This document shows positions 48,059 through 56,497 of a DNA stretch of 64,000 nucleotides, piece after piece. The stretch's first letter is position 1; each line of letters begins with the position of its first letter. Source of the stretch: Deltaproteobacteria bacterium (GTDB lineage: Bacteria; Myxococcota; Myxococcia; SLRQ01); NCBI GenBank assembly GCA_029210625.1, contig JARGFU010000003.1, positions 1 through 64,000 on the forward strand, read 5' to 3'. The notes under the pieces were generated by a model. That model was given only the letters and a program-made list of their open reading frames with translations, had not been told where the DNA came from and searched no databases. The position numbers and the translations under genes are program-made.

Positions 48059-50125
48059 TCAGGGGGCGCGCCACTTCAGCAGCCCCAGGATGCTGGCCCG
48101 GTCGTCCGTCCAGACCACCGGCTCCAGGCCGGCGGTCCAGGGGACGAGGGCCGCGTCCAGCTCCTCGCTCGCGAGGAAGTCCCGGTTGCGGGTGAGGAGG
48201 GCCCAGTTGCTCATCACCCCGCCGGTCGCGCCGTCCCGGTCGCGGCGCACCCGCCGGACCTCCCAGCCCTGGCTCGCGGCCAGGCCCCGCACCACCGGCT
48301 CGAGCTGCAGGTGGCGGTTGGAGATGTGGAAGGCGAGGATGCCGTCGGCGGCCAGGTGCGCCCGGTAGAGGGCGAAGGCCTCGGCGGTCAGCAGGTGGAC
48401 GGGGATCGCGTCGGAGGAGAAGGCGTCCACCACCAGCACGTCGAAGCCGCGCAGCGCCCCGGCGCGCCGCTCCTGCTCGAGGACGAAGCGGGCGTCGCCC
48501 AGGACGACCTCGACGCTGGCGGCCGAGTCCGCGAGGTAGGTGAAGTGCTCTCGAGCCATCCGCTCGACGGCGGGATCGAGCTCGTAGAAGAGGTAGCGCT
48601 GCCCCTCGCGGGCGTGCGCGGCCAGGGTGCCCGCCCCCAGCCCGATGACCCCGACCGTGAAGCCCGGCGCCGCCGCCCGGGGGTGGAGGCGCAGCGCCAG
48701 CCCGACGCCGCTCTCGCGGCCGTAGTAGGTCGTGGCGAAGCCGCGGCGGTGGGGGGCCAGGTACTGATCCCCGTGCCGCGTCTGCCCGTGCATCATCATG
48801 CGGTACCAGTCCTCGCCGCCGCGGCCCGCCTCCTTCACCCGCAGCACGCCGTGGAAGTTGCGCTCGCTCTCCAGCGAGCTGCGCAGCTTCTTCTCCCGGT
48901 CGGCCAGGGCGAAGAGGACCAGGAGGACGACCGCCAGGGTCCAGCCGGCGACCAGCCCGCGCCGCAGGAGGCCGGGGAGGCTCCGGGAGCGCCAGGGGAG
49001 GGCGACCAGCCCGAGGAGGAGGAAGACCAGCACCAGGCCGAGCGGGTACTCCCAGTAGCCGTCGAAGAGCAGCGGCGCGCCCAGCGCCACGAAGGCCCCG
49101 CCGGCGGCGCCGCCCAGGGAGACCAGGAGGTAGAAGCCGGTGAGGCGATCCGGGGCGGGGCGCAGGCGGGCCAGCTCCCCGTGGCAGACCATGCAGGCGG
49201 TGAAGAGGGTGGCGCTGTAGCTCGTCACCTGCAGCCAGAGCCGCACCGAGGGGCCGGCCTCGACGATGAGCAGCGAGGTGAGGGTCGCGAGCGCCAGGAG
49301 GGGGATCCAGACGCCCCGGTGGTACCAGCGGTCCCGCTCGAAGGCGACGATGAAGGTGACGAGGTAGAGGGAGAGGGGCAGCACCCAGAGGAAGGGCACC
49401 GAGGCCACGTCCTGGACCAGCTGGTTGGTGGTGGCCAGGAGGAAGAGGCTCCCGGAGCCGGGCAGGAGGAGCCAGAGCAGGGGGTGGTGCCAGGGGGGCG
49501 CGGCGCTCCGGTCGGCCGGGGCGTCGAGGGGCCAGACCGTGTCCCGGCGCAGGAGGGGCAGGGCGCAGGCGACGCTCAGGGCGGCGAAGGCGAGGTAGAC
49601 GCCCGACCAGCTCCAGGCCTGGGCCTCCAGGCCGAGGAGGGGCTCGAGCGCGAAGGGATAGGCCAGCAGCCCGAGGAGGGAGCCCAGGTTGGGGAGGGCG
49701 TAGAGGCGGTAGGGCGAGTCGCCGGGGCGGGCCAGGGCGAACCAGCTCTGCATCAGGGGGCCGGTGGACGAGAGCAGCAGGTAGGGCGCGCCGACGGTGC
49801 CGGCCAGGAGGCCGAGGATCCCCAGGGTGGGGTCGGCCGGGGGCGAGGCGGGGGGACGAGGGACGATCGGGAGGAAGAGCAGGGTGAGCGCGAGGAGCAG
49901 CAGGTGGAGCGCCGCCTGCCGCCGGGGCGAGAGGTGGCGCCGGATCCCGTGGGCGTAGGCGTAGCCGCCGAGCAGCCCGGTCTGGAAGAAGACCAGGGAG
50001 GTGGCCCAGACGGCGGTCCCCCCGCCGAACCAGGGGGTGATGAAGCGCGCGATCATCGGCTGCACTCCGAAGAGGAGCAGGGCGCCGAGGAAGATGGTGG
50101 GGGCGAAGCGGCTCAACCCGGCCAT
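48059..50125 (-). CDS. Membrane-fused spermidine-synthase-like protein
   Basis: A 688-residue protein. The first ~400 residues form about ten membrane helices (FLGALLLFGVQPMIARFITPWFGG and similar). The C-terminal ~270 residues form a Rossmann-like methyltransferase domain of the spermidine synthase type: TVGVIGLGAGTLAAHAREGQRYLFYELDPAVERMA, VLGDARFVLEQE, and VLVVDAFSSDAIPVHLLTAEAF. The family is widespread as fused MFS/spermidine-synthase proteins of unproven function. Polyamine production is not established, since the decarboxylated SAM and putrescine site residues cannot be judged here. It is convergent with the YjbQ-like gene. Confidence 0.88.
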   Translation of the reverse strand: MAGLSRFAPTIFLGALLLFGVQPMIARFITPWFGGGTAVWATSLVFFQTGLLGGYAYAHGIRRHLSPRRQAALHLLLLALTLLFLPIVPRPPASPPADPTLGILGLLAGTVGAPYLLLSSTGPLMQSWFALARPGDSPYRLYALPNLGSLLGLLAYPFALEPLLGLEAQAWSWSGVYLAFAALSVACALPLLRRDTVWPLDAPADRSAAPPWHHPLLWLLLPGSGSLFLLATTNQLVQDVASVPFLWVLPLSLYLVTFIVAFERDRWYHRGVWIPLLALATLTSLLIVEAGPSVRLWLQVTSYSATLFTACMVCHGELARLRPAPDRLTGFYLLVSLGGAAGGAFVALGAPLLFDGYWEYPLGLVLVFLLLGLVALPWRSRSLPGLLRRGLVAGWTLAVVLLVLFALADREKKLRSSLESERNFHGVLRVKEAGRGGEDWYRMMMHGQTRHGDQYLAPHRRGFATTYYGRESGVGLALRLHPRAAAPGFTVGVIGLGAGTLAAHAREGQRYLFYELDPAVERMAREHFTYLADSAASVEVVLGDARFVLEQERRAGALRGFDVLVVDAFSSDAIPVHLLTAEAFALYRAHLAADGILAFHISNRHLQLEPVVRGLAASQGWEVRRVRRDRDGATGGVMSNWALLTRNRDFLASEELDAALVPWTAGLEPVVWTDDRASILGLLKWRAP

Positions 50126-50162: not shown

Positions 50163-51080
50163 CTATTCGATCGTGCGCGTGGCGCGGGACTTCAGGTCGT
50201 CGGGAAGGGTGAGGCCGGCCTCTGCCGCGGCCTTCTGGTTCAGGATCACCGCCGTCTCCTGCAGCTCACGGTTGCCGAGGCTCTCGGGCGTGGCCCCCTG
50301 GAGGAGCTGGGCCGCGAGCTCCCCGACGGCCTTCCCCTCGGCGGCCGGATCGGGGGCGAAGGTCACGTGCACGCCTCGCTGCTCCGCCCCCGCGGTGGTG
50401 GTGGCGATCGGCAGCTTCCGGGGCTTCGCCGCCGCGAGCAGCGGCGCGATGGCGTCGATCGCCGTGGCGTTGCCCGTGACGTAGACCGAGCCCACCTCCG
50501 CGAGCTTCGCGGCGAGGTCGTCGGCCTTCAGATCGACCTCCACCGGCGTGAGGCCCAGGCGCTCGCAGATGGCGGTGGCGGTCTTCAGCTCCCGCTTGGC
50601 GTCGCTGCCCCCGGCGTGGGCGAGGGCGACGGGCTTGCCGGGGGCCAGCGCCTGCAACACCCCCAGGGCTTCCTCGATCGGGAGCTGCCAGGTCAGCCCC
50701 ACCATGTGGGAGCTGCCGGGGATCTTGATCTGCTTCGGGGTGGTCAGGGAGAAGACCAGCGGCGCGACCCGCTTGAGGCCCACCGCCGAGCGCGTCACCG
50801 TGGTGCCCAGGGTCACGATCACGTCGACCTTGAGGGTCTCCAGGCGCTCGAGGGAGTTGGAGCGGGCGACGCTGGTCGGGCCCGGCTTCTGGACCAGCAC
50901 CTTGGTGCCCGGCGCCTTGGCCTCGAGGGCGGCCTCGAAGGCCTTCAGCGAGGCCTGGTAGTGGGGGTTGTCTCGCTCCAGCAAGATCCCCACCGTCGCT
51001 GCCTGCGCCGGCGCGGACGCCGCCAGGGAGAGGAGGAGGGCCGCCGCGACGACCCAGGGGTGTCGGCGAGCGTTCCTCAT
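50163..51080 (-). CDS. ABC substrate-binding protein, TrpX-like family
   Basis: A 305-residue periplasmic binding protein with a Sec signal (VVAAALLLSLAASAPAQA). The mature part shows two Rossmann-like lobes: VGILLERDNPHYQASLKAFEAAL, DVIVTLGTTVTRSAV, PLVFSLTT, and VALAHAGGSDAKRELKTATAICERLG. This fits the ABC_sub_bind (TrpX-type) family, whose members bind aromatic amino acids or unknown ligands. No permease or ATPase gene is adjacent. Its ATG overlaps the stop of the outer-membrane barrel gene, so it is translated with the cytochrome conduit. A role as sensor or as partner of that complex is conjecture. Confidence 0.88.
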   Translation of the reverse strand: MRNARRHPWVVAAALLLSLAASAPAQAATVGILLERDNPHYQASLKAFEAALEAKAPGTKVLVQKPGPTSVARSNSLERLETLKVDVIVTLGTTVTRSAVGLKRVAPLVFSLTTPKQIKIPGSSHMVGLTWQLPIEEALGVLQALAPGKPVALAHAGGSDAKRELKTATAICERLGLTPVEVDLKADDLAAKLAEVGSVYVTGNATAIDAIAPLLAAAKPRKLPIATTTAGAEQRGVHVTFAPDPAAEGKAVGELAAQLLQGATPESLGNRELQETAVILNQKAAAEAGLTLPDDLKSRATRTIE

Positions 51081-53140
51081 TCGAAGCTCCTCATCACGTG
51101 GACGGCGAGGAAGGTGGTCGAGCTGTCGGGCCAGGGATCGTAGGGGTTGGCGGCCTGATCGATCGATCGCCAGCCGCCCGTCAGCGAGGTGGTCCAGCGC
51201 GGGTGGACCTGAAGGCGCAGGTAGGCGTCCACCCGGTACTGGAGGGAGAAGCCCGAGGAGAAGGCCGCGATGGAGACCGGCTCGAGGGCGAGGGGCTCGG
51301 TGGGCGTGAAGCGGGAGTGCGCGGAGTTGGTGCTCACGCGCAGGCCGGTGTGCAGCCAGTCCAGGGGTCTCCAGGAGAGGTCGCCCACGACCTGGTGGAG
51401 GTCGTGCTGGTAGAGGGCCAGGGGATCCCGGAGGAAGGGGGTGTCCTCTTCGGTGCTCCAGAGGTCGTAGGCCAGCTCCTGCCCCACCTGCACCTGCATG
51501 TAGCCGTAGAGGAGTAGCAGGGTGATCCCGTCGTTGGTGTTGATGGTCACGCTGCCCTGGGCGTTGTGGCTGCCCGTCCGGCGGGCGCCGCCGCGGACGG
51601 TCACGCCGCTCACCTCGTAGGCGAGGGACTCCCGCATGCCCATCGCGTACTGGTAGCGGCCGCGGGCGGAGAAGTGGGGGGAGGGGCGCCAGGTCAGCGA
51701 GAGCTCCGTCTTCCCGGTGGCGTCCGGCTCGGTGTTGAGGGCCGGGGCCGCGATCCACTCGTGCTCGTAGCCGCCCTCCACCGTGATCGTGCGGTGGGCG
51801 TCGACCTTCACCCGGGCCCCGATGCGGCTGCGGATGGTGTAGGGCGAGAGGCCCCAGTCCGACCCGTCGGGCCGCTGGAGGTCCTGCCGGCGGAAGCGCA
51901 GGTCCAGCACCGCGTCGCGGTTGACGCGGTAGCGCAGGCGCAGGCGGGTGATCAGCTCGTTCCGGTCGAGGGGCGGACGGGCCGGCACGGCCGTCGTCTC
52001 GCCGGTGGTGACGTTGGTGATGGTGGCGGTGTCGGGGCCCCGCCAGCCGACCGTCCGCCCCGAGACGCTGCCGCGCAGGGAGAGCGAGGGGAAGGGGCGC
52101 GCGGTCGCCGCCAGGTAGGCCCCCAGGGTCCGGCCCTTCAGGTCCGCCCGAGGATTGGCGACCTCGGACCAGCGCAGGCGGCCGACCAGGGAGTACATGC
52201 CGGAGTTGTCCGAGTTGAGGGCCAGCTCCTCGGTGTGACCCCTCCACACGGTCGAGAGGTTCCGGGCGTACTCTCCCGCCCCCAGCGGGAGCGCGCCCTC
52301 GTAGCGGTAGGTCTCGAAGGCGCTCAGCGGGGTGAGGGCGACCTGCCGGTGGATGAAGCTCAGCTCGACGGGCCCGAGGTGGCTGTTGAGGGTGGCGGAG
52401 CCCTCCTGGAAGAGATCGGAGGCCAGGTCGGGGGCGTGCTGGAGCGCCAGGTCGTCGAAGTGGCCCGAGCCGCCGAGGAAGGGGCGCGCCTGGTTCACGG
52501 TCCGATGATGGAGCCAGCCATCCAGGACGAGGTGGGCCGGGAAGTCGGGCAGCTTCAACATCACCTTGAGCCGGCCCGTCTGGGTGTCGATGTAGCGGTG
52601 ATCCGGCAGCTCCCCGGTCCCGACCGAGAAGCGGGGATCCGGGCCGAGGTCGAGGGGGGTGGGGGCCTCGGTGTCGTGGTGAAGGGCCGTACCGGTGAGG
52701 CGAACCTGGAGGAGCTCCCCCAGGCCGTAGACGCCGTCGACGCAGAAGTCCCGTGGATTGCGGATCACGGTGTCCGCCTTGACCCGGTGCTTCCCGATCC
52801 CGTAGAGCCCGAGGTGCCCGTCCAGGGTCGGCCAGGTCTGCTCGTGGAGGTACTCGCTGGCGCGATGGGAGCCCTCGGCGGAGAAGAAGCGGACGCCAGC
52901 GCCCAGCTCGAGCTTGAAGTCGTGCGGAGCGACGTAGGTCTCGTGGGGCTCCGGGGTCTCGGCGAAGAAGTCGTCCAGCCCCTCCTCGTCCTCCTCCTTC
53001 GCCGGGGCGGGGGTCGCCCCGGCCTGGGCGACGAGGAGGGCGGGAGCGGGCGCGTCTTCGCCAGCGAGAGCAGACGCGTCTTCACCAGCGAGAGCGGGAG
53101 CGGGAGTGGCCGCGAAGAGGAAGATGAGCAGGAGTTCCAC
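51077..53140 (-). CDS. MtrB/PioB-like outer-membrane barrel of a porin-cytochrome complex
   Basis: A 687-residue outer-membrane protein. It begins at GTG 53140 with AGGAG upstream, and the signal is ELLLIFLFAATPAPALA. A low-complexity acidic linker follows (EEDEEGLDDFF), then many alternating strands: FKLELGAGVRFFSAEG, DAVLDLRFRRQDLQRPDG, TITVEGGYEHEWI, LSLTWRPSPHFSARGRYQYAMG and a terminal TTFLAVHVMRSFE. Size, strand pattern and position 8 bases after a DmsE-type decaheme gene fit the MtrB/PioB family, which sheathes a periplasmic cytochrome in the outer membrane. Sequence similarity to characterised members could not be tested here. Confidence 0.78.
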   Translation of the reverse strand: MELLLIFLFAATPAPALAGEDASALAGEDAPAPALLVAQAGATPAPAKEEDEEGLDDFFAETPEPHETYVAPHDFKLELGAGVRFFSAEGSHRASEYLHEQTWPTLDGHLGLYGIGKHRVKADTVIRNPRDFCVDGVYGLGELLQVRLTGTALHHDTEAPTPLDLGPDPRFSVGTGELPDHRYIDTQTGRLKVMLKLPDFPAHLVLDGWLHHRTVNQARPFLGGSGHFDDLALQHAPDLASDLFQEGSATLNSHLGPVELSFIHRQVALTPLSAFETYRYEGALPLGAGEYARNLSTVWRGHTEELALNSDNSGMYSLVGRLRWSEVANPRADLKGRTLGAYLAATARPFPSLSLRGSVSGRTVGWRGPDTATITNVTTGETTAVPARPPLDRNELITRLRLRYRVNRDAVLDLRFRRQDLQRPDGSDWGLSPYTIRSRIGARVKVDAHRTITVEGGYEHEWIAAPALNTEPDATGKTELSLTWRPSPHFSARGRYQYAMGMRESLAYEVSGVTVRGGARRTGSHNAQGSVTINTNDGITLLLLYGYMQVQVGQELAYDLWSTEEDTPFLRDPLALYQHDLHQVVGDLSWRPLDWLHTGLRVSTNSAHSRFTPTEPLALEPVSIAAFSSGFSLQYRVDAYLRLQVHPRWTTSLTGGWRSIDQAANPYDPWPDSSTTFLAVHVMRSFE

Positions 53141-53148
53141 GGCAGCTC

Positions 53149-54189
53149 CTAGCGGATGAAGGTCCCGGACCCGCTGGGGGAGGGGAGGTGGGAGCCATGC
53201 AGCGTCGAGTGGCAGTTGCTGCAGCGGGTGTAGAAGGCGGCCTTCGACTCCAGGCTGGAGGGGCCGGCGGCGGCGTCGACCGGATGCCCGACGTGGCACT
53301 GCATGCAGAGGAAGGGCTCGGTGGCGACCAGCATGTCGTCGTTGGGGGCGCCGTGGGGATCGTGGCAGGTCTCGCAGTCGTCGATGACGTCGGCGTGGGC
53401 GAAGGAGAAGGGCGCGATCTTGTCGCCGTGGCAGCTGCCACAGGTCTCCCGCACCGTCGGGCGGACGAGGGCGCTCTCGGCGCCGCCGGAGCCATGGGGC
53501 TCGTGGCAGCTGTTGCAGCCCATCTTCCGCTCCATCACCGGGTGGCGGCTGGGCATCGCCATCTTGGCCCGCTGGTCCTCGTGACACTTGAGGCAGAGGT
53601 CCGACTGGTCCCGGAAGGAGATCAGCATGTCGGGGCCGGCGTGGATCGGGTGGCAGTTGGTGCAGGTGACCTCCGCGGTCGCGTGGCTGCTCGCCGCCCA
53701 GTCGTGGAGGTTGGGGTTCGCGCTGGAGGAGTGACAGTTGAGGCACATCAGGTCCTGCGCCCCCGCCGGCAGCCTCTTGATCGGGGTGAGGGTCTCGTAG
53801 CGGCAGGGGATCTTGATGCCCCGGGCCGCCGCGGCCTCGACCTCGTCATGATCGAGGCCGGCGATGGCGAGGCTGCCCGGGCCGTGGCAGGACTCGCAGT
53901 CGACCCGGTGTTCACCCTCGGCCGAGCCGGGCTGCTGTCCCATCGTGCTGTTGGCCAGGTCGTTGCGCCGGGCGTCGTGGGTGTGACAGGCCTCCAGGCA
54001 CCGGTCGGTGCCGACGTACTGGGCGTCGGGGTGACCGAGGAGCATCTCCTTGTACTCCTGGAGGGTGCCGAGGGGCTCGCGGGCCTTCAGGGCCCCGCAG
54101 GCCGCCAGGATCGCGAGGGCCGGGACGAGGAGCCACCCTCCACGGCGCCCGGGCTTCGTCGGTGCGTTCTCTCGGATGTCAGGGCGCAT
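53149..54189 (-). CDS. DmsE/MtrA-type decaheme cytochrome c
   Basis: A 346-residue exported cytochrome. The N-terminus ends in LVPALAILAAC, a probable lipobox. There are nine CXXCH motifs (CESCH, CLNCH, CTNCH, CLKCH, CNSCH, CGSCH, CETCH, CMQCH, CSNCH) and one CLEACH of the CX3CH type, giving ten likely hemes. Between hemes lie typical DmsE-family phrases: GPGS, SSHATAEVTCTNCHPIH, CLKCHEDQRAKMAMPSRHPV and CHEPHGSGG. MtrA/DmsE proteins carry electrons through the outer-membrane barrel. ATG 54189 overlaps the upstream cytochrome gene by 11 bases; GTG 54204 is an alternative. Confidence 0.92.
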   Translation of the reverse strand: MRPDIRENAPTKPGRRGGWLLVPALAILAACGALKAREPLGTLQEYKEMLLGHPDAQYVGTDRCLEACHTHDARRNDLANSTMGQQPGSAEGEHRVDCESCHGPGSLAIAGLDHDEVEAAAARGIKIPCRYETLTPIKRLPAGAQDLMCLNCHSSSANPNLHDWAASSHATAEVTCTNCHPIHAGPDMLISFRDQSDLCLKCHEDQRAKMAMPSRHPVMERKMGCNSCHEPHGSGGAESALVRPTVRETCGSCHGDKIAPFSFAHADVIDDCETCHDPHGAPNDDMLVATEPFLCMQCHVGHPVDAAAGPSSLESKAAFYTRCSNCHSTLHGSHLPSPSGSGTFIR

Positions 54190-55684
54190 AGGAGGTGGTC
54201 TCACGATCGTAGGGAGAGGTGGGGCGGGTCCCGGGCGGGACGCTCCCCGTGATCAGCTCGAGGCTGTCCCGGAGCACCTGCGCCGCGTAGAGGTAGTTGT
54301 GCACGTGGACGCCGGTGTCGTGGGAGAGGAAGTGCAGGTTGTAGGCCGCGATCAGCTGGGACTCGGTCCAGTCCCGGAGGCGGGTGCCGTAGTTCTGCTG
54401 CGCGGGATCCGGGGTGTTGAAGACGTAGGGGTAGCTCTCCTCGTTGTAGTGGACCCCCTGGGCGGCCAGCGCCTCGATCAGGGCGTCGTAGAGCCCGTGG
54501 AGCTCTTCGATGGGCGGCTCGGCGCTGCCATCCCCGTCGGCGTCGATGGCCGGGCCGATGGCCTCGTAGTCGCTCCAGACCCGGCCGGTGCTGCCGTGGC
54601 ACTCCCGGCAGGTGGCGTTGTCCCGCACGCCCCCGTCCCTCGCGGCCCGCAGGGAGTGGCCGCCGAGGTCCACCTCGTCACTGTCGGGCATGTGGCAGCC
54701 CACGCAGCCCGCGCTCTGGTGGAAGAGGTTGCCCGGCGAGTAGCGGTGGCCCGGCAGCTCGTAGGCCTTCAGGCTGAAGAGGGTCGCGCCCGCCGCCTGG
54801 TAGTGGGCCTGGATGAAGTCCTGTCCGGTGATCGTCTCGTCGTTGCCGTCGTAGGGGTCCGTGCCCTTCGCCACCATGGCGCGGAAGAGGCTGCCGCCGC
54901 TCTCCCGGCCGGAGTGGCAGATGACGCAGGCGGCGCCGCGGCCGGCGTCGACCGTGCCGTCGACGACGTCGGTGGCCGGGGCGGTCCCGCTCGTCAGGGT
55001 CACCGCGCCCTCGGCACGGAGGAGGGGCTCCCTCCCGGAGGGTAGCCCGGTGCCGAGGTGGCAGGTGTTGCAGGTGATCAGGTCCCCGCCCGGGGATCCA
55101 CCCTCGGTGAGAGGGCGGGAGTGGTCCGGCGGCCTCCAGGCCGTCGTGGCCGGATCGGTGTAGAGGGCGAAGCCGGCGCCGGAGTGGCACTGGAAGCAGG
55201 CGGTGGTGCTGAAGCCGCCCCAGGTCGGTGAGATCCAGTGGCTCTCACGGTCCGCGTGGGAGGAGCGGGCGTACTGCTCACGGACCAGCCCGGCGTGATC
55301 GTGTCCGGCGTGGCAGCTGGCCGCGCACTGATCCTCGGCGCCCTCCACCACGAAGCCCGGCGGGTTCCGGGCGGGCGCGCCGCCCGGGATGGAGAGGGAC
55401 CAGTCGACCGCGGGGTCGAGGACGAAGGCGTCGCCGGCGACGTTCTCGATCTGGACGAGGGCGCCGTCGGCGTCGAGGTGCTGATCGTCGAAGTGGGTGT
55501 CGACGATGTCGGCGGTCAGCGCCTCGGGGCTGGCCCCGGCGCCGCGGGTGCCGTGGCACTCCCGGCAGGTCGCCGAGGTCCAGCGATCGGGCGTGCCCTC
55601 GCCGTCGTGGCTCTGGGCGCTGCAGGCGGCCAGGAGGAGGGAGAGGGCCAGCACCGCGCCCGGACAGAGAGGTTGCTTGAACAT
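54179..55684 (-). CDS. Multiheme c-type cytochrome lipoprotein (about seven hemes)
   Basis: A 501-residue lipoprotein with a signal ending LALSLLLAAC. Six CXXCH motifs (CRECH, CFQCH, CNTCH, CVICH, CVGCH, CRECH) and one CAASCH of the CX3CH type are visible. The hemes lie in residues ~40-370; the last 130 residues lack Cys and form a separate domain. With a decaheme protein and a barrel behind it in the operon, it is the likely outer-surface terminal reductase or oxidase. GGAGGA precedes the ATG. The redox partner outside the cell, such as metal oxide, another cell or a soluble molecule, is not evident from the sequence. Confidence 0.9.
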   Translation of the reverse strand: MFKQPLCPGAVLALSLLLAACSAQSHDGEGTPDRWTSATCRECHGTRGAGASPEALTADIVDTHFDDQHLDADGALVQIENVAGDAFVLDPAVDWSLSIPGGAPARNPPGFVVEGAEDQCAASCHAGHDHAGLVREQYARSSHADRESHWISPTWGGFSTTACFQCHSGAGFALYTDPATTAWRPPDHSRPLTEGGSPGGDLITCNTCHLGTGLPSGREPLLRAEGAVTLTSGTAPATDVVDGTVDAGRGAACVICHSGRESGGSLFRAMVAKGTDPYDGNDETITGQDFIQAHYQAAGATLFSLKAYELPGHRYSPGNLFHQSAGCVGCHMPDSDEVDLGGHSLRAARDGGVRDNATCRECHGSTGRVWSDYEAIGPAIDADGDGSAEPPIEELHGLYDALIEALAAQGVHYNEESYPYVFNTPDPAQQNYGTRLRDWTESQLIAAYNLHFLSHDTGVHVHNYLYAAQVLRDSLELITGSVPPGTRPTSPYDRETTSYAP

Positions 55685-55774: not shown

Positions 55775-56497
55775 TCAGGGGGTCTCCCAGCGCTTCACGT
55801 GGTCGTTCTCGAGGTCGATGGTCGCGCCGCCCTCGTAGATCCACCGCTCCTTCTTCACCCCCGCCTCGACCGTCCGCTGGATCTGCCGGGGGAAGCCCCA
55901 GGCCATCTGGGCGGCGTCGGCGCGCATGCCGGCCAGCAGCTCCTTGTGCTCGATGGCGGCCTGGACGTCGGGGTGCAGCCCCTCGAGGGCCTTCAGCACC
56001 GAGTCGTCGCCCAGGTAGCGGCCCACCATGGCCTCGAAGCCCGCCAGGTCCGGCGGATCGTCCCGGAAGACCAGGACGTGGGGGGTCTGGCTCCCCGGCA
56101 CCTCCACCAGCACCCAGGTGAAGTAGCGGGGGGTGAGGAGGGAGCGGCCGGTGACGTTGGTCGCCGTGGGGAGCTGGACGTCGAGGATGCGCACCCTGGT
56201 GCCCGCCGGGATCAGGCCGTCCGCGGCGCCGGCCGTGATCGGCTCGTCCCGCGGACCGCGCAGCAGGTCGACGGTCTCGGGTGGGCGATCCGAGAGGAAG
56301 CGGAAGCGGGCGTCGCGGAAGAAGGGGCCCGTGTGGCAGCTCACCTGGAGCGTGCGGGCCTGGCCCTCGAGGGTGTCCTCGACCTGGGAGATGATCGCCG
56401 GGGCCATCCGGGTGTGGGCGGGGCAGCCGAGCGTGCCTCCGAGCGCGAGCACGAGCACGAGCGCGGACGCGAGGTCTCTCCAGGGGTTCGTCGTCAT
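55775..56497 (-). CDS. Lipoprotein of unknown function upstream of cytochrome operon
   Basis: A 240-residue lipoprotein; the leader ALVLVLALGGTLGC has a clear lipobox. The middle contains strands around PAGTRVRILDVQLPTATNVTGRSLLTPRYFTWVLVEVPG that look SH3-like, followed by a helical part (FEAMVGRYLGDDSVLKAL, IEHKELLAGMRADAAQMAWGFP) and a strand-rich end, WIYEGGATIDLENDHVKRW. The last segment resembles the SmpA/BamE-like pattern of small outer-membrane lipoproteins. No heme motif is present. It lies 90 bases before the heptaheme gene and may share its transcript. It is divergent from the enolase-superfamily gene by 45 bases. Confidence 0.75.
   Translation of the reverse strand: MTTNPWRDLASALVLVLALGGTLGCPAHTRMAPAIISQVEDTLEGQARTLQVSCHTGPFFRDARFRFLSDRPPETVDLLRGPRDEPITAGAADGLIPAGTRVRILDVQLPTATNVTGRSLLTPRYFTWVLVEVPGSQTPHVLVFRDDPPDLAGFEAMVGRYLGDDSVLKALEGLHPDVQAAIEHKELLAGMRADAAQMAWGFPRQIQRTVEAGVKKERWIYEGGATIDLENDHVKRWETP

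Follow-up and report, generated by a model that had tools for sequence, protein, structure and literature searches.

The window analysed here, a stretch of 64,000 nucleotides, contains four consecutive genes that are tightly packed on the minus strand between positions 50163 and 55684, and all of their open reading frames were confirmed at the coordinates given below. The first gene (54179..55684, minus strand) encodes a 501-residue lipoprotein, a heptaheme c-type cytochrome with six CXXCH motifs and one CX3CH motif that is assigned by its sequence to the family of Pcc-type outer-membrane cytochromes. It is followed by the gene for a decaheme cytochrome of the DmsE/MtrA family (minus strand, 53149..54204 from a GTG start or from 54189 if an ATG is used), which has nine CXXCH motifs and one CX3CH motif, and by the gene for a predicted MtrB/PioB-like outer-membrane β-barrel of 687 residues (51077..53140, minus strand, GTG start). 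The fourth gene (50163..51080, minus strand) encodes an exported binding protein of the ABC_sub_bind family, 305 residues long with a signal peptide. The heptaheme and decaheme genes overlap by 11 bases if the decaheme gene starts at the ATG at 54189, 8 bases separate the decaheme and barrel genes, and the barrel and binding-protein genes overlap as ATGA, which corresponds to translational coupling; the gene order and junctions were all as the preliminary description had stated. Sequences resembling ribosome-binding sites (GGAGG or GAGG) were present 5' of the heptaheme, barrel and binding-protein genes. The GC content of the operon (0.71-0.72) was the same as that of its surroundings, its base composition revealed no signal of recent transfer, and no RNA family or tRNA was found in the operon region. 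Directly upstream on the same strand lies a 240-residue lipoprotein-like open reading frame (55775-56497) without any family match, and 37 bases past the binding-protein gene is a fused MFS/spermidine-synthase-like gene (48059-50125). The host lineage, which had been described as myxobacteria-like, was indeed Myxococcota-like as judged by the kinship of related genomes.

The decaheme protein passed the cut-off of the curated DmsE model TIGR03508 (217.3 bits, cut-off 192.2) and matched MtrA of the solved Mtr complex (6r2q_A) with an E-value of 5e-42, which upholds its earlier reading as a ten-heme cytochrome of the DmsE/MtrA type; it missed the cut-off of NF041028, the GSU2203 family (215 bits, cut-off 325). 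It was the only match to TIGR03508 above cut-off in its own genome, and just two of the 195 Myxococcota genomes searched contained such a match. In the second of these (G159), the gene adjoins NrfD-like and ferredoxin-like genes and an 808-residue open reading frame that was read by eye as barrel-like. A single-sequence search of the genome_contigs collection gave no confirmed relative of the decaheme protein; a four-row alignment was needed for the scan of this collection, which returned 433 relatives, and the best 80 of these were kept and examined. A large barrel open reading frame was located immediately 3' of the decaheme gene in nearly all of these 80 independent loci, and because of this adjacency, together with the curated cut-off passed by the decaheme protein, the gene arrangement is not due to chance.

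In a tree of 83 decaheme proteins, the operon protein was placed on a long branch within a clade of Desulfobacterota and similar metagenome-assembled genomes (MAGs) with a support of 96/96, and a predicted lipobox (LAAC) was found in the operon protein as well as in most decaheme proteins of the Desulfobacterota clade. As far as the sequences tell, the decaheme protein and its barrel are distant allies of the Desulfobacterota branch that includes OmcK/GSU2204. The heme-1 motif of the operon protein is a CX3CH (CLEACH, 53983..54000, minus strand), and it is alone in this among the aligned proteins, as the other 82 relatives have CXXCH at this position; the insertion rests on one assembly. Two further residues set the protein apart: Met88, numbered from the GTG start (53941..53943, minus strand), is a histidine in 81 of the 83 decaheme proteins, and Ala113 (53866..53868, minus strand) is a histidine in 82 of them. 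Since these histidines are near-invariant in the relatives, an argument from conservation and not from structure, they are probably the distal ligands of the first hemes.

The barrel protein missed the cut-offs of the curated barrel models, by 0.3 bits for PF11854 (22.7 bits, cut-off 23) and by far more for TIGR03509 (14.9 bits, cut-off 240) and for NF041027, the GSU2204 family (34 bits, cut-off 350). A joint profile was built from 31 MtrB-like and GSU2204-like barrels with the operon barrel excluded, and it gave the operon barrel 30.3 bits, whereas among 100 shuffles the highest score was -0.9, and the reversed sequence scored -0.7. Profile-profile comparison returned a probability of 67% with MtrB-type barrels and 13% with GSU2204-type barrels, and a single-sequence search of the 195 genomes of the phylum found no relative. 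The AlphaFold model, which was calculated from 41 alignment rows, had a pLDDT of 66.6, with residues 330-687 mostly confident and the N-terminal half low. Its best fold match in the PDB was MtrB (6r2q_B; E-value 5.7e-12, TMq 0.55), followed by solved barrels of the TonB-dependent type at about 1e-6 with TMq values mostly of 0.33-0.42; the rows used for folding were all MtrB relatives, which may have biased the result in favour of MtrB. As modelled, the protein is a remote MtrB/PioB relative. The MtrB/PioB pattern that had been proposed for it was thus supported by the fold match and by the profile score above shuffles but not by the PF11854 and TIGR03509 cut-offs, and both the barrel and its co-occurrence with the cytochrome gene, on which the proposal had been staked, were found: MtrB was the best fold, and a barrel open reading frame stood beside the gene in nearly all of the best 80 relatives.

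MtrB forms a barrel of 26 strands and has an N-terminal CXXC motif. The operon barrel has a single cysteine and hence no N-terminal CXXC, and it contains neither a CXXCH motif nor an in-frame TGA. In 11 loci of the Desulfobacterota type (L043, L044, L047, L048, L052, L055, L056, L063, L066, L092 and L100), the barrel gene has a CXXCH motif and an in-frame TGA that is followed by 139-156 further residues, which is consistent with selenocysteine. The GSU2204 family is annotated as a selenoprotein (PMC13188914), and this matches the in-frame TGA of the Desulfobacterota-type barrels.

The lipobox of the heptaheme protein (LAAC, lipidated Cys21; 55622..55633, minus strand) was read directly and aligns with the lipobox cysteines of its relatives L187 and L186, and its CX3CH motif (CAASCH, residue 120; 55310..55327, minus strand) aligns with a CXXCH of Pcc-type outer cytochromes. 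A profile built from seven outer cytochromes of Pcc triads, with the operon protein excluded from training, gave it 129 bits, while the best unrelated multiheme open reading frame, MtrCAB loci included, reached 29 bits; no heme-preserving shuffle was among the matches listed. With a wider profile of 22 sequences, the heptaheme protein reached 143 bits, the best unrelated open reading frame (a decaheme) 56 and the best shuffle 18, and no match to the OmcA/MtrC model TIGR03507 was found at E <= 1. These profile scores place the heptaheme protein in the family whose members serve as outer cytochromes in Pcc triads of the Geobacter type. The preliminary description had held the outer cytochrome to be unlike MtrC or OmcB; the first half agrees with the TIGR03507 result, but the second is at odds with the 129 bits of the Pcc-triad profile, OmcB itself being outside the comparison. 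The protein presumably resembles OmcB of Geobacter sulfurreducens, an assumption that forms no part of the evidence.

Full-length relatives of the heptaheme protein occur in Desulfuromonadota-like genomes. Family matches were present in 42 of the 48 genomes around a Geobacter MAG (G221), and several of these genomes have a triad of porin, eight-heme protein and lipoprotein. A MAG among them (L187) has a nine-heme lipoprotein as the relative; its gene is the third of a triad, behind those for a 403-residue barrel-like protein and a 236-residue eight-heme protein. A profile scan found no family member in the best 80 of the 433 MtrA loci, and among the genomes searched, which represent part of the known diversity, the combination of this cytochrome with MtrAB was seen in this genome only; in two genomes with Desulfobacterota-type MtrAB (G216 and G220), a family member was found on another contig. 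Heptaheme genes near MtrAB in loci of the Zoogloea type were considered as relatives and rejected, as their products scored at most 34 bits with the heptaheme profile, near the multiheme background, and end in a C-terminal membrane anchor. In those loci (L076, L079, L080, L085, L087, L102 and L120), the multiheme gene lies upstream with seven motifs (six in L120) and has a neighbouring membrane-protein gene; its product is unrelated to the operon protein.

In Myxococcota, the relatives of the heptaheme protein are lipoproteins in which its C-terminal pentaheme domain occurs two or three times, and in a tree of this domain the operon protein stood alone between the Geobacteraceae and Myxococcota groups. 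The clusters that encode these tandem proteins also contain NapC/NrfH-like tetraheme proteins and proteins whose sequences read as a pair of cytochrome domains followed by a barrel-like tail, and one of them holds a decaheme of the OmcA/MtrC family as well. Four clusters in Myxococcota (L174:9597-18209, L172:4576-9576, L135:8012-14400 and L176:6381-12703) combine a tandem pentaheme lipoprotein with a protein of two cytochrome domains and a barrel tail, the NapC/NrfH-like protein being present in L174, L135 and L176 and not seen in L172, and they possibly represent another, undescribed type of conduit. In a further Myxococcota genome (L171:9426-19999), a triple pentaheme lipoprotein with 15 CXXCH motifs lies near an 11-heme protein, a 487-residue barrel-like open reading frame and an open reading frame with 14 CXXCH motifs, an arrangement that is Pcc-like. 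The profile of the pentaheme domain first matched OcwA (6i5b) and then NrfA chains, and an NrfA-like C-terminal three-helix bundle has been reported for OcwA (PMC6703420). The single-sequence model of the heptaheme protein failed (pLDDT 33, the C-terminal helices being its least bad stretches), and its tentative kinship with OcwA and NrfA therefore derives from sequence profiles.

The binding protein passed the cut-off of PF04392 (ABC_sub_bind; 53.6 bits, cut-off 25.9). The earlier label of a TrpX-like protein was discarded because it scored far below the cut-off of the TrpX model NF041285 (44 bits, cut-off 390). No ABC permease or ATPase was recognised beside its gene, and defence-system models matched neither the binding protein nor the 240-residue open reading frame upstream of the operon. 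Relatives within the phylum at an E-value of 1e-8 were 25-29% identical; in two Myxococcota genomes, one relative lies beside a chemoreceptor gene and neither lies beside a cytochrome gene, which provides no link to a conduit. Because the searches made found no binding protein beside MtrAB at any other locus of the set, its membership of the conduit, which had been proposed, is unsupported; it is probably either a passenger on the transcript or a protein that senses a ligand in the periplasm.

The host genome contains other large multiheme open reading frames. On contig 22, a frame of 3187 residues with 67 CXXCH motifs and mostly coding-like codon usage (G000:C22:20000-39999; L123:8801-18364, minus strand) is a candidate giant multiheme cytochrome, and a frame of at least 3124 residues with 18 CXXCH motifs runs off the adjoining stretch (G000:C22:40000-59999; L124, minus strand). 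An open frame of 4005 residues with 46 CXXCH motifs has a signal-peptide-like start near residue 55 (G000:C50:1-20000; L125:1752-13769), and a cluster of multiheme open reading frames with 18, 7 and 4 CXXCH motifs was found elsewhere (G000:C1:432000-451999; L126:7707-11327, minus strand).

Taken together, the operon probably codes for a hybrid conduit that moves electrons across the outer membrane and has the heptaheme protein on its outer face; it is a hybrid because MtrAB is of the Mtr type and the outer cytochrome is of the Pcc type. The conduit that had been proposed for this locus is upheld by the DmsE/MtrA family assignment, the MtrB-like fold, the tight operon and the lipoprotein outer cytochrome, with the binding protein removed from it. 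It had also been put forward as a possible new variant, on the grounds of an outer cytochrome unlike MtrC or OmcB and of its lineage; the conclusion was correct but for a different reason, since outer cytochromes of this kind are already known and the novelty is the Mtr/Pcc hybrid. The decaheme protein would be a heme wire threaded through the barrel, as MtrA is in MtrB, and the heptaheme protein would be lipid-anchored on the outer face of the outer membrane. Electrons would pass from periplasmic carriers to the decaheme protein, traverse the membrane within the barrel and exit by way of the heptaheme protein. The latter would deliver them to a partner outside the cell, for example a metal oxide, humic matter or a second cell, or, less likely, receive electrons from such a partner. 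Candidate feeders in the host genome are two matches over the NapC/NirT cut-off and many multiheme open reading frames. We infer the assembly into one complex, the outer-surface position of the heptaheme protein, the electron transfer and its direction; outward flow is suggested because the outer cytochrome is kin to reduction systems, and it could be reversed. We know of no docking between Mtr and Pcc parts.

A limited search of the open-licence literature found no report of an Mtr/Pcc hybrid. Pcc and Mtr proteins have been called phylogenetically unrelated, and Anaeromyxobacter has Pcc clusters without an outer cytochrome (PMC4245776). The OmcB complex and MtrCAB were reported to share no sequence similarity at all, and related clusters typically differ by non-orthologous replacement of the outer lipoprotein (PMC6148476). 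MtrAB has been proposed as a core able to take on other cytochromes (PMC8805035), and expression of GSU2203 (OmcK) and GSU2204 was higher with hematite and magnetite (PMC4070692).

Other explanations were weighed against the hybrid conduit. It is very improbable that the cluster was assembled by chance around a porin or TonB-type receptor with no relation to MtrB. The curated barrel cut-offs were indeed missed, and the model also has hits at about 1e-6 to many unrelated barrels; yet MtrB leads the fold matches by five orders of magnitude, the profile score of 30 bits compares with at most -0.9 for shuffles, and the gene directly follows a DmsE gene, as in related loci. We give as little credence to a DmsE-type module that serves an extracellular DMSO-type reductase and not a metal-oxide conduit; the best curated model does carry the name DmsE, but no molybdopterin reductase subunit was recognised in the neighbouring genes in the Pfam and NCBIfam scan, and the cluster has an outer cytochrome instead. 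Electron uptake through an inward conduit like MtoAB or PioAB, oxidising Fe(II) or another extracellular donor, appears quite improbable. In other bacteria, electrons move inward through the MtrAB homologues PioAB and MtoAB (PMC8805035), but the kin of the heptaheme protein are Pcc-type outer cytochromes that serve Fe(III) reduction in Geobacter, and Fe(II)-oxidation clusters are often without an outer cytochrome (PMC4245776).

We also regard it as unlikely that the MtrAB pair works alone, as MtrAB or MtoAB, with an independent heptaheme protein that merely shares its transcript. The occurrence of the combination in a single genome, the other partners that heptaheme relatives have in Myxococcota and the reported ability of MtrAB alone to transfer electrons (PMC4245776) would fit such an arrangement; against it, the genes overlap on the same strand, the heptaheme family is found repeatedly in the outer-cytochrome slot of conduits, and non-orthologous replacement of the outer lipoprotein has been described as a typical difference between clusters in Geobacter (PMC6148476).

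According to the hybrid reading, bacteria may be able to combine parts of two outer-membrane electron machines that were supposed to be unrelated. A broader and rather unlikely reading is that Mtr-type wire-barrel pairs without their own outer cytochrome, like OmcK/GSU2204, generally use Pcc-type cytochromes encoded elsewhere, that this operon has kept or rebuilt the pairing, and that its entry heme is tuned; CX3CH attachment and methionine or lost-histidine ligation would then set the periplasmic end of the wire to another potential. If the operon is a hybrid, an Mtr wire and sleeve with a Pcc tip in one operon would mean that conduits are built from exchangeable modules across the Mtr/Pcc divide, and it would point to a concrete candidate partner for the MtrAB-like pairs that stand as orphans in Desulfobacterota. 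The locus extends DmsE-type conduits to Myxococcota, and the change at heme 1 provides a natural variant with which the determinants of the potential at the wire entry could be studied.

Among known systems, the operon resembles Shewanella MtrCAB (PDB 6r2q) in its decaheme DmsE/MtrA wire, large MtrB-like barrel and outer lipoprotein cytochrome, and the order of outer cytochrome, wire and barrel is that of mtrC-mtrA-mtrB. In contrast to MtrCAB, the outer cytochrome is not MtrC/OmcA and has seven hemes, not ten; the decaheme protein has a lipobox, CX3CH at heme 1 and two lost histidines; and the barrel lacks the CXXC of MtrB and is followed by an ABC_sub_bind gene. The operon shares with Geobacter GSU2203/GSU2204 (OmcK and a selenoprotein-type barrel) and their kin in Desulfobacterota a two-gene module of wire and barrel with decaheme proteins that are predicted lipoproteins, whereas the NF041028 and NF041027 cut-offs are missed, the operon barrel has no CXXCH or in-frame TGA, and loci of the GSU2203/GSU2204 type show no outer cytochrome alongside. 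The heptaheme protein is, by its sequence profile, homologous to the outer lipoprotein cytochromes of the Geobacter Pcc triads of porin, eight-heme and outer cytochrome; however, the wire of the operon has ten hemes and its barrel 687 residues, while the triads have an eight-heme cytochrome and a porin of 400-460 residues. The tandem pentaheme lipoproteins found in Myxococcota, both in Myxococcaceae-like genomes and in others, have the same C-terminal pentaheme domain (32-35% identity), but there it is duplicated or triplicated and the clusters have no MtrAB. OcwA of Thermincola (6i5b) and NrfA are remote from the heptaheme protein, and their likeness to it, which comes from profiles and not from a fold comparison, consists of a pentaheme domain whose profiles are weakly similar and a helical D-x-G-x-x-HN segment towards the C terminus.
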